Below, piece after piece: positions 25,366 through 64,000 of a stretch of 64,000 bases of DNA. The translations under genes and the position numbers were made by a program. Within the stretch, counting starts at the first letter, position 1, and each line of letters starts with the position of its first letter. This stretch comes from Alcaligenaceae bacterium (GTDB lineage Bacteria > Pseudomonadota > Gammaproteobacteria > Burkholderiales > Burkholderiaceae_B), in contig JAUNUJ010000004.1 in the NCBI GenBank assembly GCA_030538235.1, positions 124,001-188,000 of the forward strand, written 5' to 3'. The notes beneath the pieces are model-generated. The model was not told the DNA's origin. It was given only the letters and a program-made list of their open reading frames with translations, and ran no database searches.

Positions 25366-25461
25366 TGGCGGAAGGTAGCAGGAGTCGAACCTACCTGGGA
25401 ATGTCTGACATCCCCAACTGGATTTGAAGCCCAGCCGCAACACCGGTTACGCATACCTTCC
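25366..25461 (-). tRNA. selC: tRNA-Sec (UCA), selC
   Basis: 96 bases including an encoded CCA (25366-25368). The acceptor stem has eight pairs (GGAAGGTA with TACCTTCC), with discriminator G. The anticodon loop CTTCAAA carries UCA at 25425-25427. A long variable arm pairs GGGGATGT with ACATTCCC, and the T loop reads TTCGACT. All are hallmarks of selenocysteine tRNA, and it resembles E. coli selC closely. It lies 20 bases after selB and 25 before selD on the same strand, so it is probably processed from the selenium mRNA. Confidence 0.97.
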
Positions 25462-32900: not shown

Positions 32901-32987
32901 AGGCATCGCACCAAGTAGTGTTAAACTAGACCCCGCCGCTGCTGTACCAGTTGCCTTGAAGAATTGTCGTCTAGTAATTTTTACCAT
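29916..32987 (-). CDS. fdnG: selenocysteine-containing formate dehydrogenase, catalytic alpha subunit
   Basis: Molybdopterin enzyme oxidising formate to CO2, Tat-exported. The gene has an in-frame TGA at 32397-32399 read as Sec197, so two open frames are really one 1023-residue protein; E. coli FdnG has Sec at 196. The start is MVKITRRQFFK (32985-32987, GGAGG upstream), giving a twin-arginine signal ending near SAMA. A [4Fe-4S] site follows (CPYCSVACGLLMYG and CPKGA), then RV-Sec-HGPTVAGLAPTFGRGAMTNHW. C-terminal molydopterin-binding domain present. No beta or gamma subunit gene is adjacent. Confidence 0.96.
32367..32386 (-). promoter_or_regulatory. bacterial SECIS hairpin in fdnG mRNA
   Basis: Ten bases after the UGA the mRNA folds as CGG-(bulged U)-AGCA-GGUCU-UGCU-CCG. 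A three-pair stem, a bulged U, a four-pair stem and an apical loop GGUCU reproduce the SelB-recognition features of the E. coli fdhF/fdnG SECIS. The stem encodes residues in GPTVAGLAP. Confidence 0.95.
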
Positions 32988-33184
32988 AACGAGCCTCCAG
33001 ACAGTTAACGTATAGCAACGTCCGCACCATAAAAGCATGATGCATCCGTTAATGATTTAGCAATATAATTTTTTGCTACATTGCTCCTTAGAGCTAGTTT
33101 AGCGTGTTTTTTATAAGTTGAGTAGTAGCCTAAAGCATTTTAAGTCTAAAAAACACATATTTGAGACATTTTTAGGGGATATAC

Positions 33185-47794: not shown

Positions 47795-48589
47795 CTAAAG
47801 GATTTTATAGTCTCGCATGCTCTGACACACCATAAAGACTGATAAATATAGAACGTCAACAGCATGCAGGCTAGAGAGCATTTGCAGTTTTGTTTCTACA
47901 TCATTGTTCATGCCTGTAGCGACTAAGTAAGCAAAGTTAGCCCAAGAGGAATTGGATACTGTCTGGAAGAAAAACTCGCGTACATTACAGCGTGTTAATT
48001 GCTTCTTCACTTCAAATGACCACAAGCGAATGGAGCTATCGTTACCATGGCGTACGCAATCTCTAACGATAGGGTCCCAATGTTTATCTAGTGGTTCTAA
48101 TGCCACGACATCAGGGTGCAGCCAACGATTACCACCTGAACCATAGCTATTTTTTGATTTCTTCTCATCTATGCGTTGGCAATAAAGCTTTAACTCAGTA
48201 CTGAGAAATTCAATCAATAATGGGTATAACTCATACTCCTGAAAGGACTGTGGCTTAATAAAGGAGGTCTCTTCCCCAGTAGCTATATCTTGAGTCTCAT
48301 CAGTTGTAACTTCTATCAAACTATCGTCAGAGTAATCAGATGCTTGTGGATTATCATCCCAATAATAGAGTCTTGGCCTCGGTTGATCTTGCGTCACAAC
48401 ATTAGGGCAGCGCTGCTTGGCTGCTGCAGTACGCTCTCCTCCAATTTCAGCTGATAGTTGAAAAATTAAATCATCTAGCGTCGCATATCTAGGATTAGTT
48501 CTTTTTTCAGCTATTTCCTGTGGATATCGCTTAACAAACTCGTGAGCTAACTCTCTAGCTGTGAATTTCTTACCTGGATTATCTCGCAA
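47795..48589 (-). CDS. HrgA/COG2958-like protein, probably truncated
   Basis: 264 residues from a TTG; an in-frame TAG lies six codons upstream, so the usual first residues (a short helix before NPGKKFTARELA) seem cut. An N-terminal winged-helix-like part (1-80) is followed by an acidic linker and a C-terminal part with LWSFEVKKQLTRCNVREFFFQTVSNSSWANFAYLVA, which I recognise from the HrgA-type family found beside restriction systems. The family normally continues after the LHGVGV-like segment (here LHAVDVLYL), but this frame ends within about 20 residues in unrelated sequence. It is probably a decaying gene. Confidence 0.5.
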   Translation of the reverse strand: MRDNPGKKFTARELAHEFVKRYPQEIAEKRTNPRYATLDDLIFQLSAEIGGERTAAAKQRCPNVVTQDQPRPRLYYWDDNPQASDYSDDSLIEVTTDETQDIATGEETSFIKPQSFQEYELYPLLIEFLSTELKLYCQRIDEKKSKNSYGSGGNRWLHPDVVALEPLDKHWDPIVRDCVRHGNDSSIRLWSFEVKKQLTRCNVREFFFQTVSNSSWANFAYLVATGMNNDVETKLQMLSSLHAVDVLYLSVFMVCQSMRDYKIL

Positions 48590-49144: not shown

Positions 49145-50440
49145 CTACTTCCGCACCAACTCCCCTGTCGTATTATTCATTCGATAATGAACAATCTCTC
49201 CGCTAACAATTAAATTCGCCACGGCTTCAATCACGTCTAGGCTCACATCAAACCACTCTTTGGGTTTATAAGGTTTACCGTCTTTGGCGATTAAGGTTAA
49301 ATTTAAACGTTGGGCGCTGAAGAAGGTATGGATTAAGTTTTCGAATGCCTGTGGATTCATATTTCGGCACTCGAAAGATAGTACAGGAATTACTTTGCTC
49401 TCTAAGAAAGCGATATCGTTCTCGCAATCTCTAATTCGGCTCTGTATATCCGTCGTAGTAAAGCCTATCTTATGCAGATGTTTAAATTCACTCAGTTGCT
49501 CATTAGCTTCGAACAATCTCAACACATATAAATGCCCCGTGCTAAGCTCCCGACCTTGAGGGTTAAACATACCGACAAAATCATCATCAATCGATTGAAC
49601 ATCGGTAAATAGGATTTGACGACCATTCTCATCTTTATAGATTGCTCGTGACAAAGATCGCATCAACATATTGGACTCTAATCCGTTCTCAAAAATCAGA
49701 CGTAAGCGTGCGTTTTTACGCTTACTCTTACGTTCTTCAGTCTTGAACATATCAGCGATATAGCACAAAACACCATCCAGTAGAAACGTGTCACCTACAT
49801 TTAAGTTTTGTTCTGTTTGTAGGTGATGCATTTCAGCAGTTCCCGATTTTAAGGCAACATGAGTTTTCTTGAAATGTGCTTCAAATCTCCAAAAATCTTG
49901 ACACTCAAAACGTGTACCGATTTCCTCATCTGAATAAGGACCTTGACCTTGTGCAGGGACATTATCTAAACGCAAAATATCAACATCACCAACCTCTAAT
50001 AATCCCAATGAGTCACTATTGAAAATATCATCTAAAGAAGTCACTAATTCCGGGGAGATTGCTGCCATAGAATTTGCTTCTGTAGCGACGAACTCCGCTT
50101 CTAGGGAAAACTCGTCACCAGAATCATTGTCAGTTCCAGATAAAATGCCATATTCATCATAATCATTTAAGGCATCTCTTTGTTCCGAGTTTTCTAAGAT
50201 GCCCCTAAGACGACGTGCTAATCGCTTTTCATCCATATTGTCTGCTGTCTCTTGTGGCCAGCGTGTGTTTTGGTGATAAAAAGCATTTATCTCATGAAAA
50301 CTTTGAATAAGACGGTCATCAGCTGTGATCGCCGGCTGTCTAGCCTCAACGCCTGAGAACACACCAAAAACATCATCTCCAGACAAGATCTCGTCTAATG
50401 TCAGTTTCTTTGTTTCCCCATTTAACCCTTTAAGTTCCAT
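49145..50440 (-). CDS. GIY-YIG nuclease domain protein
   Basis: 431 residues. The C-terminal 130 residues form a T5orf172-type GIY-YIG domain: GHLYVLRLFEA, HKIGFTTTDIQSRI with the catalytic Arg, and the metal-binding Glu in QAFENLIHTFF. The N-terminus (44-80) has a helical module, FHEINAFYH...EKRLARRL, that resembles the C-terminus of the helicase next door. The middle (about 100-290) is unrecognised. GGAGG for this gene lies in the last helicase codons, five bases separate the two, and translation is probably coupled. It is the likely DNA-cutting part of the module. Confidence 0.8.
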   Translation of the reverse strand: MELKGLNGETKKLTLDEILSGDDVFGVFSGVEARQPAITADDRLIQSFHEINAFYHQNTRWPQETADNMDEKRLARRLRGILENSEQRDALNDYDEYGILSGTDNDSGDEFSLEAEFVATEANSMAAISPELVTSLDDIFNSDSLGLLEVGDVDILRLDNVPAQGQGPYSDEEIGTRFECQDFWRFEAHFKKTHVALKSGTAEMHHLQTEQNLNVGDTFLLDGVLCYIADMFKTEERKSKRKNARLRLIFENGLESNMLMRSLSRAIYKDENGRQILFTDVQSIDDDFVGMFNPQGRELSTGHLYVLRLFEANEQLSEFKHLHKIGFTTTDIQSRIRDCENDIAFLESKVIPVLSFECRNMNPQAFENLIHTFFSAQRLNLTLIAKDGKPYKPKEWFDVSLDVIEAVANLIVSGEIVHYRMNNTTGELVRK

Positions 50441-50445
50441 AGAGC

Positions 50446-52563
50446 TTAGCCTCCTGTCGCCATCCTTTGTGCTTTCTGATTACGTAGATAAATAATGGCT
50501 TGAGCCATGCGTTTTTCTTGTATATCTGTGGAAGTTAATGATGGCTGACGGTTATGCTTCTGAAAAAATTCATTTATTTTTGGCCATAACACAATCGCTT
50601 CTTGTTCGGTCATTTGGATATCATTGGCTAATGCAACGTCATGTATTACTTTTAAGACGTCTGTCGTCACATTTTTGGAAAGAATCTCATAAGCTTGTTG
50701 AAATGGGTTCACTTCACGAATTAAATCAATCGCCAAGTTTGATACATTAATAAACTTTTCACCCATCAAAATAAACTTTCGATTTAAAGCAACGCCATCA
50801 TCCTCGCCATCCACACCATAGGGCAAATTACGTTCACGCACTATACATTCAGAATCAAGATTAAGACGTTCTTCTTCAGTCAAGCTATTGATATCTGTGT
50901 AATGCCCATCCCGGTAGATATAGATGCGTTCACCCTCTATCTCAGCGTCGCCCGGTATATCCTTAGCATCGACTAAACCGCCCTGCTGTATGATCTTAAT
51001 AGCGGTTAAATAACCTTGTTTCACTTGATCGATTTCAGTTTGTGTTAAATCAGGGTAACGCTTGGCGATAATTTTAGGCAGGACGATTTCATTCACTACC
51101 TCAGGGTCAATAGCATCTGTTATTAAGTGATCCGCTTCTTTCGTCTTGGCTAAGGCCGCAGTAATTTCATCGCGATCGCTATTTAAAATCTTCAAGACCT
51201 TGTCCGATGTTTTGCTTGTTGTATCATCAATAAGAATTGTGCCGACATCAATCTGCTCACCCTCTTTGACATCCGATCGGCGCTTAAACTTGATATTCGG
51301 CGCTAGGACTTGCTCCATCATTAAGGAGAGCGTAATTGCCTTGAGTAGGTTATTGACCGAGACTTTTACGTCCTCATCAGCGGCATCAGGCTGCGCAATT
51401 AAGTTGGTGAATTGGGCGTGCGTCTTCCCTTCGCAATCACGGGTTGAGCGACCAATAATCTGTACGACTTCCGTCATCGAGCCACGATAGCCCAATGTGA
51501 GCACATGCTCACAATACGGCCAGTCAAAGCCCTCTTTCGCCATACCGAGCGCCACAATAATATCCATATCATCACGCGACTGAATATTGCGTAGGTAGGC
51601 TTGAACACGTGGCCGAATATGCGGTCTATCATCCACAAGGTCAGCCACTTTAATGAGCTTGCCTGCATGAGTGCGAACCGTGATAATGCCAGTCTCCGAA
51701 TCTGTGCTCTCAATCGCACCAATCGTATCAATAATATGACCAACAGCAGAATACTTATCGACCACTGCCTCACCCGCATTCACATTAGGAATATAGATAA
51801 TGGTTTTCTTCGTGGGGTCAATCACTTCACCCAAGGCATCTAAATAGCGTCCTTGGTAAAAGTGATAGCCTAAGCCAAGCGACTTCAGGTAGGTATAACC
51901 GTTCAATTGCTCATAATAAGTATAGGTGACTTTTTCAAACTTCTCTTCATCTTCCGGCAAGAGGATTGGCACCCCATCGCCACGGAAGTATGAGCCAGTC
52001 ATGGCAATAATATGCGCTGATGAGTCACGCATTAGGTGGTCAATTAGCTCACCGAGTTTATTATCTTCTTTGGCAGAGACATGATGGAATTCATCAATCG
52101 CCACTAATACATCATCAAAATCCTTCGCCTCTAATTGCTCACACGCAAAGCGAAACGTCGCATGCGTACAAACTAAAGTCTTCTCATGTGGATTGTCCAT
52201 AAAGGCTTTAAAGATTTCAATCTTGCCTGCATCATTCTCATCCGTGCAGAGATTATTATGTGGCAGCACTTCCCAATCAGCAAAGAAGCCATGCTCGCTT
52301 AGATTGGTATTTCGGAATGAACTTCCAATCGACATCTCAGGCACAGCAACAATCGCTTTCTTAATACCCTGATTATGTAACTTATCTAAAGCCAAGAACA
52401 TTAAAGCACGTGACTTACCTGAAGCAGGAGGTGCTTTAAGTAGCAAATATTGTGCATCACGCTTCTCATACGCTTTGGCCTGCATTTCACGCATACCCAT
52501 AGTATTACCTTGCGTGCTTTTGCCAGTCTGTGCATACTGTACTTCTAAGAGTTGAATGGTCAT
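50446..52563 (-). CDS. DEAD/DEAH-box (SF2) helicase
   Basis: 705 residues. Walker A is LKAPPASGKSRALM (Lys50), Walker B is VAIDEFHHVS near residue 150, motif III-like AMTGSYF follows, and motif VI is QIIGRSTRDCEGK near 375. The first 25 residues contain a Q-rich lead-in. The C-terminal 50 residues hold WPKINEFFQKHNRQPS...EKRMAQAIIYLR, a module shared with the nuclease partner. Gap of 27 bases after the methyltransferase and five before the nuclease. Likely translocase of the module, analogous to the HsdR motor. Confidence 0.88.
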   Translation of the reverse strand: MTIQLLEVQYAQTGKSTQGNTMGMREMQAKAYEKRDAQYLLLKAPPASGKSRALMFLALDKLHNQGIKKAIVAVPEMSIGSSFRNTNLSEHGFFADWEVLPHNNLCTDENDAGKIEIFKAFMDNPHEKTLVCTHATFRFACEQLEAKDFDDVLVAIDEFHHVSAKEDNKLGELIDHLMRDSSAHIIAMTGSYFRGDGVPILLPEDEEKFEKVTYTYYEQLNGYTYLKSLGLGYHFYQGRYLDALGEVIDPTKKTIIYIPNVNAGEAVVDKYSAVGHIIDTIGAIESTDSETGIITVRTHAGKLIKVADLVDDRPHIRPRVQAYLRNIQSRDDMDIIVALGMAKEGFDWPYCEHVLTLGYRGSMTEVVQIIGRSTRDCEGKTHAQFTNLIAQPDAADEDVKVSVNNLLKAITLSLMMEQVLAPNIKFKRRSDVKEGEQIDVGTILIDDTTSKTSDKVLKILNSDRDEITAALAKTKEADHLITDAIDPEVVNEIVLPKIIAKRYPDLTQTEIDQVKQGYLTAIKIIQQGGLVDAKDIPGDAEIEGERIYIYRDGHYTDINSLTEEERLNLDSECIVRERNLPYGVDGEDDGVALNRKFILMGEKFINVSNLAIDLIREVNPFQQAYEILSKNVTTDVLKVIHDVALANDIQMTEQEAIVLWPKINEFFQKHNRQPSLTSTDIQEKRMAQAIIYLRNQKAQRMATGG

Positions 52564-52590: not shown

Positions 52591-55362
52591 TTAAGCGCTA
52601 CGATTAGCAGTTTTACTGGCGCGACGAGTGCTTGGACGTGCGGCCTGTTGATTTCTTTCAGCTTCAATCAATTGTTCATAGAGTCCAAATAAGAACTCCA
52701 CACGTTCAAATGCATCTGCAAAAGGCTTCTTACGATACAGTTGCTCGACAGCCCTATCTAAAGCTTGGTGCGCTGCTAGTAACCTATCTGGCATCGACTC
52801 AGGGTTATATAACTGCGCTAACGTCATGGCAGGAAACTCTTCACGCACCAAGATCACTTCCTCAGCCAGTTCGGCGATTTCTTGTTTCTGTTTTTCAGTG
52901 GCTTCAGGCCATGGGAAGGTGTTATAGACTAGGGTGCCTGAGTAACGATACCCAACTCCTAACCTTCCAGCAACAGTACGCATCCAATCGTTATGCATAG
53001 TCGAATTTACAATTCCAAACTCATACAAAGAGCCATTTATAATTAAATTATTTAGATCGGTCGTTATGATGGAGTCAGTCTGAAAATATCCCATTGGAAT
53101 ATAGTTTCTACGACTTGTTGAGACTCTAGGAATTAATATAAATTTTTCTGGGTTATTTAAATCTCTAAATTGATGTGGTCTTTCAGCCAAGCGATTAGCC
53201 CCTCGATCTCTGCTTGATAATCTCATTTCCTTAACAGCATTCACCCTTTCCATCACTTTAGGCATGGTTAGCAATTCCTCCGCGGAAATACCTACCAACC
53301 ACAAGCACCAACGCTCTTTACCATTAATAAACTCATCAGACCCTAAGAGTTTTTTAATCCATTTAGCTGCGTTTGGCTCTTCACGAATTAAGTTATCTTT
53401 CTCTATTGTAGTCATCAATAGATTACCGCCATCGGTAGGTTGATTTCCTCGCACAAACCTTGAAACTGCTCCTAATGGAGTTTCTCTGCTCGATATTGTT
53501 AGATTTCCACCCTCAATTAAATATGGACTAATATTTTTTACTTCTTGACTATGCCATTGATTATCTAGTAGACGATAAATTGTCTTAGTTGTGCTTGTCG
53601 AATTAGCAAGACCAATAATTACCACATGTACCGCGGCATTATCACGGGCATTATTACGCCAAGGAAACGTTTGATAGGCAAAGTCAATTTGGACATTTAA
53701 ATCAAAAACATATGGCCATAACATGGCAACCTGCTCACCTTGGCAAAGAGAGTTAGTTGAAACTAGTGCCAATTTAGTTTGTGTATCCTGAATGTATTGC
53801 GCTCCTTTCCAGAACCAGCAAGCAACATAATCTAGATATTTAAACTTTGGAAATCCGTCAAACACTAATTCCATGTCTTCTGTCTGAGTTGTAGTTCTGT
53901 TTCCTGCTCCACCAAAAGGCGGATTTCCCACCACATACACCTCATCCTGCTCTGTCTTAGGGCAGACTTCATTCCAATCTACGCGTAAGCTATTACCATG
54001 AACAATATGACCACTGGCTTTTAAGGGTAAGGTCGGTTGCACACTTCCAAATAGCTCTTTAAACTTCACATTCATCTGGTGTTCAGCAAGCCATAGGGAT
54101 AATGTGGCAATCTCTTGAGCGGAATCATCCATCTCAATACCATAGAACTGATCTAGACTAATGGTGCTGAGTAAGAAAGTATCTTCTTTGGCCAGAGCTT
54201 GAATGGCTTTAAAGATCTCCATCTCAAGTAGGCGTAATTCTTTATACGCAATAATCAAGAAGTTGCCTGAACCGCAAGCGGGGTCAAAGATTTTAATCTC
54301 GCCGAGTCGAATGGATAGCTGATGCAGCGCTTTTACCTTCTTACTAGCATCCTTCAAGCTGATGATACGATTTAACTCTTCATACAAGGGCTGCAAGAAC
54401 AGGGGTTGAATCACCTTCATAATATTTGGCACTGAGGTGTAATGCTGACCCTGGTTACTGCGTTGTTCAGGATCTATCACGGCCTGGAACATGGAGCCGA
54501 AGATATCAGGGTTAATTTCTGACCAATTCAGGCGTGCTGAGTCCAACAAATTACGACGAATTCGCGCGGTGAATTTTGGAATCTGAATTTTGTCCTTAAA
54601 TAAGCCGCCGTTAACGTAGGGAAAAGCGCTTAAGTAATTCGGTACCTTTTTACGAATAGCTGAGTTATCAGCTGCATTCAAAATATCAAACAGCACATCG
54701 AAAAATTCTCCGGTATCGCTACCATCTCGTAAGGTATTCTCACTAATAGCCCTAGTGAATTGTCCCTTGGCGAAGATATCCGTATCTTCCGCAAAGAAGC
54801 AAAAGAGCAAACGTGTTAAAAACACATTTAAATGATGCGCCTGCTCTGCTGTTTCGATCGTATTATTCGCACGTATTAAGTCAAATAAGCGCCCCATCTT
54901 CTCGGCAGCACGTACATCGACCTCATTCTCTGCCCAGTCACGACTACGCTCATAACCAACTAACGGTAAGAAGAAACTCAACTCCTTATGTTGCTCTAGG
55001 AAAGCACATTCCATGGTCTCGTCAGTACGTGTGTCATAGGCGACAAGCTCATTAAAATCGGTGACGATAAGGAAGCGAATGCTATTCGAGGCGATTCTCG
55101 GTGAAGCACGTAACACACCCATGGCATCGAAGATATCCTGCCCATCAACAACAGGCTTGAAGTAAACACGCGCTCTTTGCGCAACTTCACCTTGCTCAGG
55201 ATGAGCCGCCGCATTGTAATCGCTCTCAGGGTTTCGCATGCGCGTAATGGTTGAATTAGGCGTACCAAACAAACTTAAAAACTCATAAATATAATTCTCT
55301 TTATCTGCTCTAATGGCAATTTGCTCTAAACCATCATAAAGTTCTGTTTGATTAACTGTCAT
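52591..55362 (-). CDS. MmeI-like N6-adenine DNA methyltransferase
   Basis: 923 residues. An N-terminal domain (1-140) resembles the MmeI N-domain in outline but lacks a PD-ExK centre. A helical spacer follows (145-340). The methyltransferase core has SAM motif I FDPACGSGNFL (359-369) and motif IV NPPF (480-483), specifying N6-adenine. A target-recognition region (about 600-830) and a helical C-terminus end in a basic tail RRASKTANRSA. Putative promoter at 55433-55462. The protein would modify host DNA, while the helicase and nuclease genes downstream supply cutting. Confidence 0.88.
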   Translation of the reverse strand: MTVNQTELYDGLEQIAIRADKENYIYEFLSLFGTPNSTITRMRNPESDYNAAAHPEQGEVAQRARVYFKPVVDGQDIFDAMGVLRASPRIASNSIRFLIVTDFNELVAYDTRTDETMECAFLEQHKELSFFLPLVGYERSRDWAENEVDVRAAEKMGRLFDLIRANNTIETAEQAHHLNVFLTRLLFCFFAEDTDIFAKGQFTRAISENTLRDGSDTGEFFDVLFDILNAADNSAIRKKVPNYLSAFPYVNGGLFKDKIQIPKFTARIRRNLLDSARLNWSEINPDIFGSMFQAVIDPEQRSNQGQHYTSVPNIMKVIQPLFLQPLYEELNRIISLKDASKKVKALHQLSIRLGEIKIFDPACGSGNFLIIAYKELRLLEMEIFKAIQALAKEDTFLLSTISLDQFYGIEMDDSAQEIATLSLWLAEHQMNVKFKELFGSVQPTLPLKASGHIVHGNSLRVDWNEVCPKTEQDEVYVVGNPPFGGAGNRTTTQTEDMELVFDGFPKFKYLDYVACWFWKGAQYIQDTQTKLALVSTNSLCQGEQVAMLWPYVFDLNVQIDFAYQTFPWRNNARDNAAVHVVIIGLANSTSTTKTIYRLLDNQWHSQEVKNISPYLIEGGNLTISSRETPLGAVSRFVRGNQPTDGGNLLMTTIEKDNLIREEPNAAKWIKKLLGSDEFINGKERWCLWLVGISAEELLTMPKVMERVNAVKEMRLSSRDRGANRLAERPHQFRDLNNPEKFILIPRVSTSRRNYIPMGYFQTDSIITTDLNNLIINGSLYEFGIVNSTMHNDWMRTVAGRLGVGYRYSGTLVYNTFPWPEATEKQKQEIAELAEEVILVREEFPAMTLAQLYNPESMPDRLLAAHQALDRAVEQLYRKKPFADAFERVEFLFGLYEQLIEAERNQQAARPSTRRASKTANRSA

Positions 55363-55680: not shown

Positions 55681-56157
55681 TCACGTCCACTCGATACCTG
55701 CTAAGACCAAGAAAAAGTTTGAGGATTCTTTAGCCTCATCCTCCGTCATTTCTCTGTCCATCGCTAAGGAGTAGCAGACTTGATGATCTCGCAATCGGTC
55801 ATAAGCTACCAGATGATGATAATCGGTGACCACAATGATGCGTGTGGCGTGTGTCTTCACCAATGGATTTGCTAGGATCTCATCAAGTGTTTGCTCTAAA
55901 TCGACGCCTTGTTTTACACGTCTGAAGAAAAGTCTGCCTGACTTGATCACTTCGCCAGTCTCGGGATTTGGCGAAAGGTTTTCCTTGTGATAAACCTCAT
56001 CTAAAGGCCTAGGCGCTTTTGGGTGATTTGAACCAAGAACAATCAAATCTCTTAAAAATTTAACCATAGACTCTTGTTTCTGCTTCTCAAGATGCTTTTC
56101 ACGCATCTGCATAAGATTCTCGTGGCGCTCATTTTTGCTATCCTGCATTTCGTTCAT
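55681..56157 (-). CDS. satellite protein resembling the methyltransferase N-domain (copy 1)
   Basis: 158 residues. A charged helical start (1-30) is followed by a domain (about 31-158) that follows the N-domain of the 52591-55362 methyltransferase nearly end to end. Matching points are the FL..L helix, NPETGEVIKSGRLFFRRVKQGVDLEQTLDEIL, then RIIVVTDYHHLVAYDRLRD and FFLVLAGIEW. The methyltransferase has GEVAQRARVYFKPVVDGQDIFDAMGVL, LIVTDFNELVAYDTRTDE and FFLPLVGYER at the same spacing. No catalytic residues are evident. It could dock on, compete with or regulate the module; function unknown. Confidence 0.7.
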   Translation of the reverse strand: MNEMQDSKNERHENLMQMREKHLEKQKQESMVKFLRDLIVLGSNHPKAPRPLDEVYHKENLSPNPETGEVIKSGRLFFRRVKQGVDLEQTLDEILANPLVKTHATRIIVVTDYHHLVAYDRLRDHQVCYSLAMDREMTEDEAKESSNFFLVLAGIEWT

Positions 56158-56277
56158 TGCTAACTCTCTTTGTGAATTTTTACTACTTTCTGATTAATAA
56201 ATTATAAAATGCTTCAGATGTATCAGGGGTGTTGCTAAGCTTAGGATATAGGCTCAATGGTTACTCTTAGCTGCTTA

Positions 56278-56832
56278 CTACCCCTCCCGTGTACAAGGAA
56301 ACATCTCCCTCTCTAATCCCGCTAAGGTACAAAAAAACTTCATTGGCTGATTACGCTCTTCTTCAGTCATGTCTCGAATCTCGGCAAAGGTGTAATGAAT
56401 ATATTCGGCGCGTAGGCGATCATAGCCGACGATATCAACATAGTCGGTCACGATGACTTGGCGCACATAGTGTTTGGTGATCAGTGGATCATCTAATAGA
56501 TTTTCTAAGGCTTGCTGTACGTCCACACCCTCTGCTACGGGCTTAAAGTACAGACAACCCGGCTTGATCACTTCGCCAGTCTGTGGATCGGGGGCATAGT
56601 TCTCATCATCAAGGACTTTGCCCAAAGGTAGTTCGACGCTCTCCGGCTCACCTGTCATAATGCTCAGTCTCACTAAAAATTCATACATGCTGATACTTTT
56701 GTCTTTCATCTTCTTTTCTCTCTGAAATAGCTTTTGTGTCAATTGATTGAGGTCTTGACGCCGATTTAAACGACCCATGTCGATTATCTTGGCATTTACT
56801 CCCTCTCTTTTAATACGCTGTTCGTAACTCAT
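56278..56832 (-). CDS. satellite protein resembling the methyltransferase N-domain (copy 2)
   Basis: 184 residues from ATG 56832, with GAGGA upstream (GTG 56835 is the first codon of the open frame). A basic helical start (1-47) precedes the same domain as copy 1: YEFLVRL, DPQTGEVIKPGCLYFKPVAEGVDVQQALENLL, RQVIVTDYVDIVGYDRLRAEYIHYTF and FFCTLAGLERE. It matches the methyltransferase N-domain more closely (YFKPV, YEFL) than copy 1 does. Last in the row before the divergent WYL gene, whose operator candidates lie just upstream. No catalytic motif seen. Confidence 0.7.
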   Translation of the reverse strand: MSYEQRIKREGVNAKIIDMGRLNRRQDLNQLTQKLFQREKKMKDKSISMYEFLVRLSIMTGEPESVELPLGKVLDDENYAPDPQTGEVIKPGCLYFKPVAEGVDVQQALENLLDDPLITKHYVRQVIVTDYVDIVGYDRLRAEYIHYTFAEIRDMTEEERNQPMKFFCTLAGLEREMFPCTREG

Positions 56833-57071: not shown

Positions 57072-57941
57072 ATGTCTAAAGAGCAAGATAATTGGCCAAT
57101 GCGATGGGATCTTTTATTTCGCTATCGCATTATTGAGATCATTGCTCAGTGGGAGGGACGACTCACAACCAATCACTTACGTTCGACACTAGGAATTGGA
57201 CGACAGCAGGCGTCTAAAGACATTAATGCTTATCTGACGGGCCAAGGACAAGGAAATCTGGTCTACGATAAACACCTCAAGGGGTATAAACCCACCCCTG
57301 AGTTTCAACCCCGCTTCACCACGGGGACGGCTGATGAGTATCTGCATTTGTTAAGTCGGGATAAGCATATCACTCATACTTTTGCTAATCTGCATCTGGG
57401 TTTTGCGCATACCGAGGTAGTCAATGTGCCGGTGCGCAATATTAAACCGCAGATTCTACGAGTTTTAATTCAGGCAGCGCGACAAAATAAACGTGTCGAG
57501 ATAAGCTACATATCCTTATCAAATCCTGTGGCAGAAACCCGAATCATTGCACCACATACCATTGTTTGTACTCCCCTACGCTGGCATATTCGAGCTTATT
57601 GCGAGAAGCAAAAGGACTATCGTGACTTTGTTTTGAGTCGTTTTCGTGATGAGGCGGAGCTCTTAACTGAATCGGAATTCACACAAGCCCAAGATGACCA
57701 TTGGCAAACAGAAGTCGAAATCATTATTTGTCCGGATTCGAGATTAACTGCGGAGCAACAAGGCATTATTGAACGCGACTATGGGATGGCAGATGGCAAA
57801 CTACGCCTCACCACACGAGCTGCCTTAGTGCCCTATATGCTACAGGCATTTAATATCGATCCGCATAAGTTGGAAACCAAAGCCGAGGCCCAGCAAATTG
57901 TTGTTGAAAATCTCGCTGAACTGAGTCCTTATTGGTTTTAG
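57072..57941 (+). CDS. WYL-domain transcriptional regulator (BrxR/CapW-like)
   Basis: 289 residues. An N-terminal winged helix-turn-helix (1-70, IIAQWEGRLTTNHLRSTLGIGRQQASKDINAYL) is followed by a WYL domain (about 135-200: KRVEISYISLSN, TIVCTPLRWHIRAYCEKQKDYRDFVLSRF) and a C-terminal domain with RDYGMADGKLRL. GGAG nine bases before ATG 57072 fixes the start. This architecture is that of BrxR/CapW regulators that control phage-defence operons. It is divergent from the satellite and methyltransferase genes and likely represses them. Confidence 0.85.
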   Translation: MSKEQDNWPMRWDLLFRYRIIEIIAQWEGRLTTNHLRSTLGIGRQQASKDINAYLTGQGQGNLVYDKHLKGYKPTPEFQPRFTTGTADEYLHLLSRDKHITHTFANLHLGFAHTEVVNVPVRNIKPQILRVLIQAARQNKRVEISYISLSNPVAETRIIAPHTIVCTPLRWHIRAYCEKQKDYRDFVLSRFRDEAELLTESEFTQAQDDHWQTEVEIIICPDSRLTAEQQGIIERDYGMADGKLRLTTRAALVPYMLQAFNIDPHKLETKAEAQQIVVENLAELSPYWF

Positions 57942-58050: not shown

Positions 58051-58815
58051 ATGGAAAACATCAATTCAGATTTAGAAACCTCCTTAAAAAACCTATTATT
58101 GCAAGCTGAACAGGGAGATTGTGACGCACAACTCACTCTCGGCCGTTTGTACTACGGAGGTGAACTAATCGAACAAGATCTTCAAGCTTCTGCCCATTGG
58201 TTTTTACAAGCCGCTAATCAAAACAATGCACTTGCTCAAACCATGCTTGGGGTCATGTATAGCAATGGCGTAGAATTACCGCAAAATTACCAAGAAGCGA
58301 CAAAATGGTATTTACTAGCTGCTGAACAAGGTAATGAAATGGCTCAATATAATTTAGCCCTTTTATATGACGCTGGTACAAAAATCAAACAAAATCACCA
58401 AGAAGCAGCAAAATGGTATCATCGAGCCGCAGAGCAAGGCAATCCACGAGCTCAACGCAACTTAGCTGGTATGTATCTTAACGGTGATGGTGTCCAACAA
58501 AATGATAAAGAAGCCTTAAAGTGGTTCCAACTAGCCGCAGCCCAAGGTGATTCTAGTGCATTACTTAATCTTGGTTATATGTATAGCGGAGGTCGAGGGG
58601 TCAAACAAAATTACCTTGAAGCGGAGAGGTTCTATCATATGGCCGCTGAGCAAGGTGAATTCGGCGCATATCAAAACTTAGGCGTTATGTATGCTAATGG
58701 ACAAGGCGTAGAACAGAATCTCTCATTAGCAAAAGATTACTTTAAAAAAGCTTGCGACCACGGTTATCAAGCGAGCTGTGACGCATATGACCAAATCATC
58801 AATGCAGGTTTTTGA
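58051..58815 (+). CDS. Sel1-repeat protein
   Basis: 254 residues made of about six Sel1-like repeats of 36 residues (for example AQTMLGVMYSNGVELPQNYQEATKWYLLAAEQGN), beginning near residue 24. There is no signal peptide, so it is probably cytoplasmic, unlike many secreted Sel1 proteins. Such helical-hairpin solenoids mediate protein-protein contacts. It lies 109 bases after the WYL gene on the same strand; a link to the defence module is possible but unproven. Confidence 0.88.
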   Translation: MENINSDLETSLKNLLLQAEQGDCDAQLTLGRLYYGGELIEQDLQASAHWFLQAANQNNALAQTMLGVMYSNGVELPQNYQEATKWYLLAAEQGNEMAQYNLALLYDAGTKIKQNHQEAAKWYHRAAEQGNPRAQRNLAGMYLNGDGVQQNDKEALKWFQLAAAQGDSSALLNLGYMYSGGRGVKQNYLEAERFYHMAAEQGEFGAYQNLGVMYANGQGVEQNLSLAKDYFKKACDHGYQASCDAYDQIINAGF

Positions 58816-58921
58816 TCCTCAAATAATATACTTATTAGATAATTTTTTAAAGTAAGCACTAACGCTCAACTGATTTTCATGGTTCTGAACACTGCATCTT
58901 GGCAAGATATTCAACCGCTCA

Positions 58922-60232
58922 CTAGCCCCGCGGCCAACGCGGGTGCAAATCATCCACTATCAATAAATGACGATGCTCACCCTGCCCACTATGCTCTAGC
59001 AAATGTGGATGGTCTGCCGGTAAATCCGGGTGTTCATGAACAAACTCACCGACATCATGTCTTGGCCACACCTTTAAGGCAAGGAGCACACCGATAACAC
59101 CAATTAACGACATAATGACAAAGGTTGTCTGCTGCCCAAAGCTAGCACCAAATCGCCCTGCCAATGGATAACATAGCAACCAACAGGCATGAGACAGCGC
59201 AAATTGTGCCGCAAACACGGCCGGCCGATCTTCGCTATGTGAGGAGCGACGCAACAGACGCCCCGATGGCGTTTGCGCCACGCTATAACCAAAGCCCATA
59301 ACAAACCACAAAGGCAATAAGATGGTATAACTCTGGATCATCGCACCAATAGCGGTCCCTAGCACCAACACCATGGCCCCCGTGATCATCACCAATCGAT
59401 CAGAGACTTTAGTTAATAGACCGGTTAAGGTTAACGCGGCAATCATTGAACCACCACCAAAGGCCGCTAATGCCCAAGCAACCTCCGTATCACCCAAGCC
59501 AAAACGTGACTTCACGATGACCACGGTATTAACAATCACCATGGCGCCCCCAGCGGCTACCGCTAGACTGATCGCTAGTAAACCACGCAAACGCGACGTC
59601 GCCAAATAAATTCTAACCCCTCGGGTGGTGCGATCCCAAATACCTCGACGAGGCCCTGAAGCAGTCACGGGTAAACTGACACTCAACACCAAAGCAGCTG
59701 AGACGATAAAACCAATCACCGTACCAGCAAATAAACTATGAAAACTGATAACCGTCAAGAGTGCAGCCGCTAGCATTGGAGAAATTAAATTCTCTAAATC
59801 GTAGGCCAAGCGTGACATGGATAAGGCTTTGGTATATTCCTCTTCATCTGGGAGAATATCAGGAATTGTCGCCTGGAATGTCGGTGTAAAACCAGCTGAT
59901 GCCGCCTGCAAAACAAAGATTAGCAGATAAACCTGCCAAACTTCCGTCACAAACGGCAAGCTCACAGCCACCGCCGCTCGCACCAAATCTAATGCAACTA
60001 ATAGTGAGCGTCTAGGCACCCTATCCGCAAAGGCCTGAGCAATCGGCGCAATGCCAACATAGGCAATCATCTTTATTGCCAAGGCCGTACCAAGCACCGC
60101 CCCCGCATTTGGTCCTGCTAAATCATAAGCAAGTAGTCCCAGTGCTACCGTCATTAAACCCGTACCGATTAAGGCAATCACTTGGGCAGAGAACAAACGT
60201 CTATAGGTACGATTTTTAAGAATGGATAACAT
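58922..60232 (-). CDS. MFS exporter with His-rich C-terminus (NreB-like)
   Basis: 436 residues with about 12 membrane segments. It has the MFS loop motif FADRVPRRSLL. The cytoplasmic C-terminal tail (about 395-436) is His-rich: EFVHEHPDLPADHPHLLEHSGQGEHRHLLIVDDLHPRWPRG is read as eight His in roughly 40 residues. Such tails occur in nickel exporters of the NreB group, so metal efflux is likely. The gene begins nine bases after the ancestral stop of the RcnR-type repressor and lies in its operon. Confidence 0.8.
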   Translation of the reverse strand: MLSILKNRTYRRLFSAQVIALIGTGLMTVALGLLAYDLAGPNAGAVLGTALAIKMIAYVGIAPIAQAFADRVPRRSLLVALDLVRAAVAVSLPFVTEVWQVYLLIFVLQAASAGFTPTFQATIPDILPDEEEYTKALSMSRLAYDLENLISPMLAAALLTVISFHSLFAGTVIGFIVSAALVLSVSLPVTASGPRRGIWDRTTRGVRIYLATSRLRGLLAISLAVAAGGAMVIVNTVVIVKSRFGLGDTEVAWALAAFGGGSMIAALTLTGLLTKVSDRLVMITGAMVLVLGTAIGAMIQSYTILLPLWFVMGFGYSVAQTPSGRLLRRSSHSEDRPAVFAAQFALSHACWLLCYPLAGRFGASFGQQTTFVIMSLIGVIGVLLALKVWPRHDVGEFVHEHPDLPADHPHLLEHSGQGEHRHLLIVDDLHPRWPRG

Positions 60233-60241
60233 GGGTTCTCT

Positions 60242-60485
60242 TTAGAGAAGTTTCGTCAGTGATTTAATTTCGTCTAACCCGGCAGCCGCATCAATCAATA
60301 TGATCATGTATCAGCACGCGTTTAGTCGCGGTAATCGCACTTTCAACGGCACTTAATTGACACGCGATATCAAGGCAGACCTGCTCCTCTTCAATCATCG
60401 TCATCACATGCCGAAGGTACCCCTCTGCGCATTTTAGTCGCTTGTTAAGCGCCGGATGAGTTGCGTGTTTATGTGGAGTATTCAT
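60242..60485 (-). pseudogene. CsoR/RcnR/FrmR-family repressor, frameshifted
   Basis: The intact first 64 residues (MNTPHKHATHPALNKRLKCAEGYLRH...RVLIHDHID) are a DUF156-type metal- or formaldehyde-sensing repressor with Cys37 and His60. A stop follows at 60291-60293 in this frame, but the next frame continues DAAAGLDEIKSLTKLL and stops at 60242-60244, as the family end should. A small deletion, about 8 bases at an ATTGAT repeat, would explain it. Residues after HDHID (the HC segment with a ligand) are lost. If translated at all, the short product may no longer sense its ligand. Confidence 0.75.
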
Positions 60486-60495
60486 GCAAAAATGA

Positions 60496-60513
60496 TATCC
60501 CCCTAGGGGGATA
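60496..60513. promoter_or_regulatory. CsoR/RcnR-type G/C-tract operator
   Basis: TATCCCCCTAGGGGGATA is a perfect 18-base palindrome starting 10 bases upstream of the repressor ATG. G/C-tract inverted repeats with A/T ends are the usual sites of this repressor family. Confidence 0.85.
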
Positions 60514-60967
60514 CAGTCAATGGATTATTTGCTTTGAAAAAGTCGTAATTGACCCTAGGAAAAGTACTTTGACACATCCATTCATTGAACCATGTCAGGA
60601 AAATCCTTCTTGATAGTTTCTCGAAGAAGGGTCAAGAAGCTGTTGACTGAACCGACATGAACCTCAGTTGACAACTATTCTTTATTTAAATACCCACAAA
60701 TTGGACTTCTGTAAATTTAAAACCTTTCGTGATTTCTTCCATCATGATAACGATGACAGAAACCTCTGGTTTTGATATGTGACTTTTTACGCCATGCTTA
60801 AGCTCATGTTCCAGGCCATAAGCTCGTATCCTAGCGTCCTAAGCACAATATTCTGAGTTTTAATAAGCAAATACGTAGACTCATGAATAAGAAAAATTAA
60901 GTCAGAAGATTTTAACTATAATGCATCCATCATATATCTATTTAACTATCTTGAAATACGTCACTAT
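60514..60967. other. intergenic region with a possible gene remnant
   Basis: 454 bases between the repressor operator and the SHOCT membrane protein. No complete gene is seen. On the minus strand 60686-60838 reads as 50 codons of protein-like sequence without a start, listed separately. CTTCTTGA and TCAAGAAG near 60605-60640 form an inverted repeat of unclear meaning. Confidence 0.5.
60686..60838 (-). pseudogene. possible gene remnant
   Basis: A 50-codon frame, bounded upstream by TAG, reads YGLEHELKHGVKSHISKP and later MMEEITKGFKFTEVQFVGI before its stop. The mix of charged and hydrophobic residues looks coding, but there is no start codon in a likely place and I do not recognise the family. 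Confidence 0.25.
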
Positions 60968-61717
60968 ATGAGCTATTTAAAAACCAATTTTATGTATTCA
61001 CCTTTGACTTTTTGGGATAGAGTTAAGGTTATTTCTTGTCTTGCATACTTGGTTGTGAGTGTTGTTGTCATTCTGTATAACCTTGTGGTCTATTTGGTTT
61101 TTTACCACATGGTCAGCTTTATAATTGATATTTTTATCACTGCGACTCAAGGCGAATCGTCTTCTCAATCAACAAACAGCACTCTCGATGAGTTTTTTAC
61201 TTTCTTAAAATTACCAATTTTGTTTGGACTCTTATTAGCCTTACCATTTGTACTTGTGCTGATCGGGTTATATCGTATTAAAGCTAAAAAGAGCTTCACT
61301 TTTTTTAAAAGAAGCATCATCTTTATACAGTTCCTATGGATTTTTGCTGTCGCACCACATTACTTGGGAATCATAGAATTAATGGAGCCTGCTCCCCACT
61401 CTGTAGATGAGAATTTGCTAACAGGGATATGGCTGCGAATCTTTGTGGTCTGCTTTACTTTATTCGCAATACATTATTTCCTCTACCTTCCTCTTGCCAA
61501 GCATCGTATGTGGGTGATGGACAATGGTTTCTTGGCAACAAAAGCCGAGCCTGATAACCCACCTGCTCCCAGCAATGAGGAACTGGTCTCAACGCTACCT
61601 ATCGAGGAACAAATAGCTAAATGGCAATCGTTGCTTATTAATAAGCAGATTAGCCTAGCAGAGTTTAATAAAATCAGAGGAAAACTGATGGAGATGAGAT
61701 ATCGCTCCATCACGTAA
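60968..61717 (+). CDS. membrane protein with C-terminal SHOCT domain
   Basis: 249 residues. Four hydrophobic segments (about 22-55, 77-98, 110-128 and 155-178) form a small membrane domain of no family I recognise. After a Pro-rich linker (AEPDNPPAPSNEE) the last 40 residues read IEEQIAKWQSLLINKQISLAEFNKIRGKLM, a typical SHOCT-type short helical hairpin, which often drives oligomerisation. No operon partner; it is convergent with the AlbA-type gene. Confidence 0.7.
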   Translation: MSYLKTNFMYSPLTFWDRVKVISCLAYLVVSVVVILYNLVVYLVFYHMVSFIIDIFITATQGESSSQSTNSTLDEFFTFLKLPILFGLLLALPFVLVLIGLYRIKAKKSFTFFKRSIIFIQFLWIFAVAPHYLGIIELMEPAPHSVDENLLTGIWLRIFVVCFTLFAIHYFLYLPLAKHRMWVMDNGFLATKAEPDNPPAPSNEELVSTLPIEEQIAKWQSLLINKQISLAEFNKIRGKLMEMRYRSIT

Positions 61718-61788
61718 GTAGAGCGGTGAAGATGGTCGAATTTTGTAATTTTTCGACTATTTTTTTATTGCCTTTTGATCCTATCTGT

Positions 61789-63009
61789 CTATCGATACAG
61801 CACGGTTTTTAAATAATCCTCGGTGAGTTCAAACTCAGGCTCTTTACCACTCAGAGCTTTAGTCAGAGGAACAATTTTTGTTCTAACCCCCATGCCGCGA
61901 TAATCAACATAACCATAGTCACGTAAGACCTCCATCACAATGGTATTACGTGGTGAACGTTGTCCTGCCTTCATCTTTTCAACTGTCATTGAATTAGGTA
62001 AAGCTCCCGGACTGATAATTTCAAGGCGGTCTGAATAAGCCGACACTTCGATTTCAACAAAGCGAGTCCAGTCCCTGTGAGCTAGTGCATTAATTAAAGT
62101 TTCTCGAACGGCTTCGAGCGGATAAAACCATTGAGTTTCACGACGTAAGCTTTGATTAACCTCACCGGCTTCTTGAGAGATAAATGGGGTCATAATCTGC
62201 ATAAAACGCTCAATGATCCCACCATCAATTAGACGTTTATCAGCCTGCTCTACATCAAATCGACCGACCATCGGACCATCAATAATCTCGTCGAGGACTG
62301 CCTGATATTCCTTATCTTCACCATGAAAAGCCATAACCCTCAACCCCGCTTGTTTTAAATAGCGGCGTGGACTCTTACCGAAAAGAAGCAACCCTGCAAT
62401 TGTGCAACACAAATTACCGGCCGCTTCGGTAAGAAAACCCAATGCAAGTAAGCGAGTCTGCCAAGCTTCAGGCGATTGAGGAACATCCGGGTCACATAAA
62501 ATATCACGAATATAATTGACAAGCCGAGCATCATCCAAAGAATTTATATCGGTCCTTGGTACAGGCATAGCTTCAGTATGCAACATGCCACCTAATTCAA
62601 ATAAGCGCATTTGTTGCTCACGGATTGCTAGCCTCGACGTAGTTCCGATACGAATATAGATTTCCTCTTTACCATCATGGCGAAGTACATAAGGCTTAGA
62701 AATACCTAGGGAAAAACTAACAACCGCAATGATTTTGTCATCATCCAGTTTCACTTCTTCATAAAAAGGCAAAATCATCGGGTGAATCTTGCTTTGGAAA
62801 ACATTCATCACCCATTTTTCAAGGTCTGCTCTCTGGATGCCAGTGATTGAACCATCATCTTCTACACCCAATAGAATTCGACCGCCTTGGAAGTTGGCCA
62901 TGGCCACCACTTCTTTAGCTAATTGCTCAGGACGAATATCATCTCGCTTAAACTCAATACCTGAGTTTTCACCATTAGTGATGATTTCTAATAATTCTGT
63001 TTTTAGCAT
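61789..63009 (-). CDS. AlbA_2/Schlafen-type ATP-binding protein
   Basis: 406 residues. The N-terminal Schlafen AlbA_2 domain (about 8-130) shows NSGIEFKRD, ANFQGGRILLGVEDDGSITG and RIGTTSRLA. A middle helical part (150-270) is followed by a GHKL-like ATPase segment with EAVRETLINALAHRDW and EISPGALP-like LEIISPGALPNSM near 300-345, and a C-terminal R-GMG motif (YRGMGVRTKIV). This is a common accessory-genome protein proposed to regulate transcription or defence. No partner gene adjoins it. Confidence 0.82.
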   Translation of the reverse strand: MLKTELLEIITNGENSGIEFKRDDIRPEQLAKEVVAMANFQGGRILLGVEDDGSITGIQRADLEKWVMNVFQSKIHPMILPFYEEVKLDDDKIIAVVSFSLGISKPYVLRHDGKEEIYIRIGTTSRLAIREQQMRLFELGGMLHTEAMPVPRTDINSLDDARLVNYIRDILCDPDVPQSPEAWQTRLLALGFLTEAAGNLCCTIAGLLLFGKSPRRYLKQAGLRVMAFHGEDKEYQAVLDEIIDGPMVGRFDVEQADKRLIDGGIIERFMQIMTPFISQEAGEVNQSLRRETQWFYPLEAVRETLINALAHRDWTRFVEIEVSAYSDRLEIISPGALPNSMTVEKMKAGQRSPRNTIVMEVLRDYGYVDYRGMGVRTKIVPLTKALSGKEPEFELTEDYLKTVLYR

Positions 63010-63181
63010 AATTGACTCCTAAGCTATGAATAACTTAAATAATATAATTCCGCTATTGATTTGATATATCATAAAAAACAATCGCATCAATGCCTAACTT
63101 ACTCGTCGAATTATGAAATCCCTATTGTTTGATGATTATTTATTGTTATCAGGACATATTTAGAGCAAGTAGCAAAAACAT

Positions 63182-63214
63182 AAAAAAAGGCTTATGGATA
63201 AAAACCCCTAAGCC
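63182..63214 (-). terminator. terminator behind the tRNA-Pro fragment
   Basis: On the minus strand GGCTTA (63209-63214) and TAAGCC (63189-63194) pair around a 14-base loop and are followed by seven T residues. It lies 11 bases past the CCA end, as expected for the original tRNA gene's own terminator. Confidence 0.85.
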
Positions 63215-63225
63215 CTTGAATTTAT

Positions 63226-63274
63226 TGGTCGGAACGGAAGGATTTGAACCTTCTACCCCTTGCACCCCATGCGC
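63226..63274 (-). other. 3' fragment of tRNA-Pro(GGG), attachment site of an integrated element
   Basis: The minus strand reads, from 63271, ATGGGGTGCAAG, then the T arm GGAAGG-like pairs with loop TTCAAAT, and the acceptor end CGTTCCGACCA. This is the anticodon loop to CCA end of a tRNA-Pro with anticodon GGG. Upstream of 63275 the sequence no longer forms a tRNA. A 3' fragment beside an integrase gene is the mark of a site-specific insertion into a tRNA; the intact copy should lie at the far right end of the element. Confidence 0.85.
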
Positions 63275-63459
63275 TTAAATACAATAAACTAATGAAATCA
63301 TTTGGAATGGTTTAGACCGTCAAAACCCTTATAAACAAAGGCTAACAGGATTATATTTTATTTATCTTAGTCAAAAGCGGTATAATCAGATATAATCTAA
63401 AACAACAATTTGTTTACCCATTTGTTTACCCATCAGAATTAAAAGCAAGGTTTATTATC

Positions 63460-64000
63460 ATGGCGACTAGATACCCGAAAACAGGAAAAGGCACAAAATG
63501 GACTGCTAGAGAATTGGCGGCCATAAAGCAAGATTGGATCGGTGATTCTATATCAGACGGTGAAGGACTTACTGGCGAAGTCCGCAAAAGCGGCGATGGT
63601 GTAACAATACCCTTTAGTTATGCCTTCAGATGGGAAGGAAAAACTACAAAACTATATTGTGGCTCATACCCTAATACACCAATTGCAGAAATCCGCGCCG
63701 TACGAGATGAAGCAAAAAAAGCACTAGCCCAAGGAATTGACCCAAGACTACAAAAAGAAGCTGAGCTAATACAGGAGCAGCAAAAAGTAAAAGCCGTTAT
63801 TGAAAAGCAAAAACAAGAAGAGCTGGAAAACAAAACCTTCGGTGAAATGTTTAACGCATGGCTTGATGGGGGCGTATCACGTGAAAACAATAACGCCCGC
63901 TTAATTCGTACATTCAACAAAGATGTATTGCCTACCATTGGTGATAAACCCGTACGTGAAATAACTGAGCATGATTTAAGGAGTATTTACCGCAATGTAT
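63460..64000 (+). CDS. tyrosine recombinase (P4-like integrase), N-terminal part
   Basis: The frame opens at ATG 63460-63462 and continues for 180 codons to the window edge without a stop. The N-terminal part has the DUF4102-like pattern of P4-type integrases: TTKLYCGSYPNTPIAEIRAVRDEAKKALAQGIDP. A charged helix and the SAM-like core-binding domain follow (TFGEMFNAWLDGGVSRENNNAR, DVLPTIGDKPVREITEHDLRSIYRNV). The catalytic R-H-R-Y domain lies beyond the window. It directs integration into tRNA-Pro. Confidence 0.88.
   Translation, partial: MATRYPKTGKGTKWTARELAAIKQDWIGDSISDGEGLTGEVRKSGDGVTIPFSYAFRWEGKTTKLYCGSYPNTPIAEIRAVRDEAKKALAQGIDPRLQKEAELIQEQQKVKAVIEKQKQEELENKTFGEMFNAWLDGGVSRENNNARLIRTFNKDVLPTIGDKPVREITEHDLRSIYRNV

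Follow-up and report, generated by a model that had tools for sequence, protein, structure and literature searches.

Sequence comparison identifies two small proteins of an Alcaligenaceae bacterium, SP1 and SP2, as diverged free paralogues of the N-terminal domain (N-domain) of the DNA methyltransferase encoded next to them. The three genes that follow them are the known DnmA-YeeB-YeeC set. The free N-domain proteins beside this core are what is new here; they are a genuine, uncommon addition to an established system, found so far in two genomes. In the window (the whole stretch of 64,000 nucleotides that was analysed), the five genes lie on the minus strand and are ordered, in the direction of transcription, SP1, SP2, methyltransferase, helicase and T5orf172 protein. 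Both small ORFs are present as first described, and the locus comprises the following features:

56278..56832, minus strand: SP1, a free N-domain paralogue of 184 residues; ORF with an N-terminal extension of about 45 residues followed by an MmeI_N-like domain
55681..56157, minus strand: SP2, a free N-domain paralogue of 158 residues; ORF with an MmeI_N match
52591..55362, minus strand: DnmA-type (MmeI-like) DNA methyltransferase of 923 residues, nuclease motif lost; MmeI_Mtase, TRD, hel, C and N domains; match to MmeI (5hr4) at E=1.1e-196
54943..55362, minus strand: the methyltransferase's own N-domain (residues 1-140), the apparent parent of SP1 and SP2; helix/strand order as in the SP1 model
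50446..52563, minus strand: YeeB-type SF2 helicase of 705 residues; ResIII and Helicase_C; 85% identical in the second genome with this layout (G222)
49145..50440, minus strand: YeeC-type T5orf172 (GIY-YIG) protein of 431 residues; T5orf172 44.6 bits, MUG113 48.1 bits
55433..55462, minus strand: weak promoter-like site from a promoter scan, 10/12 match, about 70 bp before the methyltransferase ATG
57072..57941, plus strand: WYL-domain regulator, divergent from SP1 and a mere neighbour; WYL 50.3 bits

Purine-rich, ribosome-binding-like stretches, read by eye, precede the ATGs of both small genes. The promoter scan of the region returned 21 sites against a shuffle mean of 21.9, which is chance level; the weak site listed above might permit transcription of the core apart from SP1 and SP2. 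Third-position GC is slightly higher in the small genes (0.47 and 0.49) than in the core (0.36-0.42). In PADLOC the methyltransferase falls under the type IIG enzymes (1015 bits), and neither SP1 nor SP2 has a match. No WYL ORF is among the ORFs listed before SP1 in G222, and a 264-residue ORF after the module (47795-48589, minus strand) gave no Pfam, PADLOC or NCBIfam match at the thresholds used. Seven other genomes of the same genus were searched, three of them less than 90% complete, and the helicase was found in none; from this absence and from the tyrosine integrase that starts near the module, at 63460, the five-gene set looks acquired. The DNA-methylating gene set beside the small proteins is probably virus-fighting.

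Two further regions of the window may be mentioned. Positions 58051-64000, near the module, encode a Sel1-repeat protein, an MFS transporter, a Schlafen/AlbA_2 protein and the tyrosine integrase. At 29916-33038 (minus strand), a formate dehydrogenase alpha chain is split by an in-frame TGA (RVUHGP context), where ORF callers would break it; it is an ordinary selenoprotein, with a tRNA-Sec at 25366-25461 and nearby genes that we take, read by eye and not by a family search, to be SelA, SelB and SelD.

Relationship of the small proteins to the methyltransferase

In direct comparisons, SP1 aligned with SP2 at 43% identity (E=7.7e-33) and with the methyltransferase N-domain at 36% identity (E=1.1e-12). 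Local-alignment z-scores against 1000 shuffles of the small protein were 53.6 for SP1 and SP2, 28.6 for SP1 and the methyltransferase, and 24.4 for SP2 and the methyltransferase. A profile-profile comparison of the four small proteins of the two genomes with 30 methyltransferases (hhalign), which the preliminary description had proposed as a check, gave a match (97.5%, E=5e-12) that spans residues 50-142 of the methyltransferase in the window. For the Pfam family MmeI_N (PF20464; cut-off 27 bits), the methyltransferase scored 69.5 bits and SP2 28.0 bits; SP1 fell short at 14.6 bits, and its membership is drawn from the direct and profile-profile comparisons. The small proteins differ from other members of this family in standing alone, in their N-terminal extension, in an insertion of their own and in the absence of the catalytic residues.

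The preliminary description had the small proteins follow the methyltransferase N-domain along their whole length. The homology stands, but about 45 residues at the start of SP1 and about 30 at the start of SP2 are without a methyltransferase counterpart, as is the insertion around SP1 residues 151-158. The shared order of motifs likewise holds as a general pattern and not in every detail, as SP2 has LFFRRV in place of YFKPV, and the YDRLR of the small proteins corresponds to YDTRTD in the methyltransferase. The four small proteins share 20 invariant positions that none of the eight nearest methyltransferase N-domains has, two of the 20 being gaps there.

The AF2 model of SP1 reaches a pLDDT of 81-97 in blocks of ten across residues 81-170, and its helix/strand order is the same as that of the methyltransferase N-domain, both structures being predicted. 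The small proteins end near a predicted hinge of the methyltransferase (residues 139-145, pLDDT<50). A Foldseek search with the SP1 model returned no significant match; MmeI (5hr4), with its N-domain disordered in the crystal, was absent among the best 50 matches listed. Neither SP1 nor SP2 matched an HTH or other DNA-binding family in Pfam, NCBIfam or PHROGs at the thresholds used, an absence that is no proof. Target recognition is assigned to methyltransferase residues 618-820 (MmeI_TRD), far outside the N-domain; the suggestion that the small proteins switch target-site specificity is therefore unlikely, and we rejected it.

The N-domain and the gene set it belongs to

The N-domain of MmeI is described as a PD-(D/E)XK nuclease with residues D70, E80 and K82 (PMC4833311). 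In the alignment with 5hr4 these residues are not conserved in the window methyltransferase, and the triad is absent from all four small proteins and from a split N-domain fragment at another locus, L093. On this evidence, the N-domain common to the small proteins and the methyltransferase is read as a dead PD-(D/E)XK nuclease.

The triad was counted by script on 62 rows aligned with MmeI. Twenty rows came from loci with a YeeB-like helicase anywhere in the fetched stretch, not always as the next gene (e.g. L087, L089-L092, L067); 16 were readable and all 16 had lost the triad, the other four being pieces, cut or extended rows. Among the 37 rows for which no helicase was found, two were unreadable, and the triad was kept in 29 of the 35 readable rows and scored lost in six. 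One of these six (L077_482) is a C-terminal fragment rather than a genuine loss, four (L100, L101, L108 and L110) come from contigs that end inside or soon after the methyltransferase, and L109 is the one real loss without a helicase, where other effectors follow. Judged from these alignments, nuclease loss is associated with a helicase encoded separately, and where the helicase is present the domain is kept without catalysis. The same association has been noted for DnmA of Bacillus subtilis and a group of MmeI homologues by Morgan et al., as told in the available parts of PMC7261158 and PMC9973331.

At L109:1-8848 (G428:C53), the dead MmeI-like methyltransferase is followed by a HEPN (LA2681) protein and a 1520-residue AAA/SF1-type helicase with a C-terminal MTES_1575 nuclease; from this locus, methyltransferases with the dead domain may serve different effector sets. 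At L093:8355-11120 (G771:C4), the N-domain is a separate ORF of 140 residues, split by a stop from the remainder of the methyltransferase, and helicase and T5orf172 genes follow.

The window core, in which the dead-triad methyltransferase is followed immediately downstream by an SF2 helicase and then by a T5orf172/GIY-YIG gene, agrees in composition and order with DnmA(YeeA)-YeeB-YeeC of B. subtilis and its homologues. It differs from them in its neighbours: the portions available of the published descriptions contain no free N-domain proteins (PMC9973331, PMC7261158). According to the same sources, the B. subtilis set gave no phage or plasmid restriction under the conditions tested, and deletion of the homologous genes in Vibrio crassostreae is told to have raised sensitivity to some phages (PMC9973331). 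The window methyltransferase resembles the type IIL enzyme MmeI in carrying MmeI_Mtase, MmeI_TRD, MmeI_C and spacer domains in one chain. It departs from type IIL enzymes (MmeI, DrdV) in that the catalytic D, E and K that mark the N-terminal nuclease domain of this type are lost, the helicase and nuclease are separate genes, and extra free N-domains are present. Small genes beside enzyme genes also recall the controller (C) proteins of type II systems, which are described as binding DNA through HTH motifs (PMC12707154); SP1 and SP2 resemble a nuclease domain that has lost its activity, and neither has an HTH match at the thresholds used. The preliminary description, which overlooked both the known core and the dead nuclease domain, finds partial support; its statement that the layout is undescribed agrees with our open-access literature searches, which gave no system with free N-domain proteins.

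Occurrence and conservation of the small proteins

A Pelistega MAG (G222) is the one further genome with the order SP1-SP2-methyltransferase-helicase-T5orf172, so that the duplicated free N-domains seen beside their parent gene set in the window are also found in a second genus, although in that single genome only. The gap between SP1 and SP2 is about 120 bp in the window and about 950 bp in G222, where it holds a 177-residue ORF on the opposite strand. A regulatory site shared by the two loci was rejected, as the intergenic stretches gave no convincing alignment. Directly before SP1 in G222 lies a 194-residue ORF (L011:9129-9713, G222:C11) with GIY-YIG-like residues read by eye and no Pfam match. 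It has relatives on Nitrosospira and Methylibium plasmids, and it was rejected as a partner of the small proteins because two near-full-length plasmid relatives (of three matching records) occur in other surroundings, one of them beside Zorya genes.

Six of 268 genomes of the family match SP1, the window's own included; the matches are short free ORFs only in the window's genome and G222, and methyltransferases in the other four. A profile of the small proteins matched 7 of 399 genomes of the order and 3 of 369 of the class, again including the window's own, and those of the window were the only free copies found in either set; one match in the class (G697) is a weak 63-residue frame (E=0.007). 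The three genome sets overlap, and no third free copy was seen across them. A genome_contigs scan with 183 candidate stretches confirmed one locus, that of the Pelistega MAG. A comparison of every ORF of at least 50 residues in the window and 63 fetched stretches against both small proteins (E up to 1e-3) yielded the four small proteins as the only short matches. The 3.5 kb upstream were listed for 17 loci with the methyltransferase, helicase and T5orf172 genes, and all 15 without the small proteins, including G631 (L106), the closest in the N-domain tree, have unrelated genes there.

Searched with SP1, 50,697 phage records gave no match, and in viral_contigs none was confirmed for the alignment of the small proteins (334 candidate stretches) or for SP2 (8 candidate stretches). 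Of 72,556 plasmid records, SP1 matched 36, in no case over 80% of the query, and SP2 matched 13, four of them over 80% of the query and all four from Moraxella osloensis. Most of these matches (31/36 and 11/13, respectively) lie inside a gene annotated as a DNA methyltransferase or type IIL enzyme; the rest are annotated 'hypothetical protein' or 'none'. The MmeI_N family matched 44 of the 369 class genomes, 41 over the cut-off. Nine candidates for a free MmeI_N domain were rejected by eye as other restriction, methyltransferase or unrelated proteins, contig-end ORFs or broken methyltransferases (L060, L067). A 67-residue frame with stops (G842) and a 129-residue contig-edge frame (G851:C98) stand outside these nine.

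Between the window and G222, a thin sample of one genome pair, SP2 is 81% identical over 157 residues (dN 0.117; dS 2.0, saturated) and SP1 66% identical over 137 residues (dN 0.254; dS saturated). With dN values of 0.212 for the methyltransferase N-domain, 0.129 for the rest of the methyltransferase and 0.091 for the helicase, SP2 is more conserved than the N-domain and SP1 less so. Differences at the three codon positions are 0.11/0.08/0.50 in SP2 and 0.32/0.17/0.53 in SP1. This bias, together with an SP2 dN far below dS, indicates that the small genes, intact in two genera, are kept as proteins and are under purifying selection.

The tree was built from 47 of 63 aligned rows, leaving out seven that were pieces or lacked a readable N-domain and nine long, divergent MmeI relatives. 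The four small proteins form one clade (100/99) in which SP1 pairs with SP1 (98/92) and SP2 with SP2 (99/98), a pairing that points to a duplication preceding the divergence of the two loci, with the warning that the branches are long. The clade falls inside that of the dead-nuclease methyltransferases; long branches meet there, and we do not rely on its exact placement. Its stem measures 1.63 changes per column.

Possible roles of SP1 and SP2

We tentatively favor a role as a brake on assembly, in which SP1 and SP2 would occupy the docking or pairing surface of the N-domain in trans and so hold back its assembly with the helicase and nuclease. The N-domain of MmeI is mobile and disordered in the crystal and is thought to become ordered only on pairing, a second molecule being needed for cutting (PMC4833311); in DrdV, N-domains supplied in trans are described as assembling at the cut within a tetramer (PMC10201449). 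The parental N-domain, tethered by a hinge and no longer cutting, would act as a protein-protein surface, and if the retained dead domain is such a contact, its free copies would act on that contact. This surface might either pair with its counterpart in another methyltransferase, as in MmeI and DrdV for cutting, or hold the YeeB helicase and YeeC nuclease, and the free copies would compete for it. Being first in the direction of transcription, the small proteins would accumulate early and could keep the helicase and nuclease from loading at unmethylated host sites for as long as methylation is incomplete; alternatively, the brake would act when sites turn unmethylated after damage.

The retention of the five-gene order in G222 despite the differing SP1-SP2 gap counts in favor of a brake, as do the homology, the end of the small proteins near the hinge, the loss of the triad and the conservation of SP2 above that of the methyltransferase's own N-domain. 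Against it, none of the 15 other inspected core loci has the small proteins, so the system in general needs no brake, and with the B. subtilis set giving no restriction under the tested conditions there may be little to brake. The small sample of two genomes, the saturated dS, the Pfam score and lower conservation of SP1 and the chance-level promoter scan weigh on the same side. A more specific version, which we consider somewhat doubtful, is an anti-restriction brake built in by duplication: a nuclease turned docking domain, with two free copies that would titrate assembly of helicase and nuclease without DNA mimicry. Inhibition by phage or plasmid proteins that prevent assembly of the active form 'has not been shown', in the words of the available text of a 2025 review (PMC12707154).

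Next in our ranking, though unlikely, is the opposite role, a positive adaptor. SP1 and SP2 would complete the restriction complex, for instance by bridging DNA-bound methyltransferases via pairing of N-domains or by carrying YeeB and YeeC to the site, making the five genes an obligate set. Cleaving relatives need N-domains from other subunits in trans (for DrdV, PMC10201449), two diverged paralogues stand side by side in both genomes, as for a hetero-pair, and SP2 is highly conserved; yet the 15 cores that lack an upstream small protein, G631 among them, show a core independent of such proteins elsewhere. Gene order, the promoter-like site and SP2 conservation are compatible with brake and adaptor alike. 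It is less probable still that the methyltransferase is the ancestor only and that SP1 and SP2 act on another target, e.g. transcription of the island or another nuclease. Such a shift would fit the 20 invariant positions and the long stem branch, and fits poorly with their place directly beside the core in both genomes and with the lack of a matched DNA-binding family at the thresholds used.

That the small proteins are bait, imitating the N-domain so as to soak up or signal phage or plasmid inhibitors of it, seems improbable. An arms race would suit the separation of the two copies, the lower conservation of SP1 and the nearby Schlafen/AlbA_2 protein and integrase, but does not predict the unusual conservation of SP2; we also know of no inhibitor of the methyltransferase N-domain, which we count against this reading. 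Least credible is that the pair are functionless leftovers of truncated duplicate methyltransferases. Free fragments can arise, as the 140-residue piece at L093 illustrates, but selection largely refutes this explanation (SP2 dN against dS, third-position-biased differences, both ORFs intact in two genera), and the residues and insertion found only in the small proteins and the ribosome-binding-like stretches before both genes likewise speak against it.

DnmA-YeeB-YeeC sets occur in many bacteria and pose the question of how their methyltransferase, its nuclease domain dead, cooperates with a helicase and a nuclease encoded separately, and of what use the retained domain still is. Free copies of the N-domain that are under selection suggest that this domain plays an independent part in interactions, and the small proteins offer a means of finding its partner. 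If the preferred reading of SP1 and SP2 as an assembly brake is true, the pair would exemplify restriction control that relies on a duplicated domain rather than on transcription or DNA mimicry.
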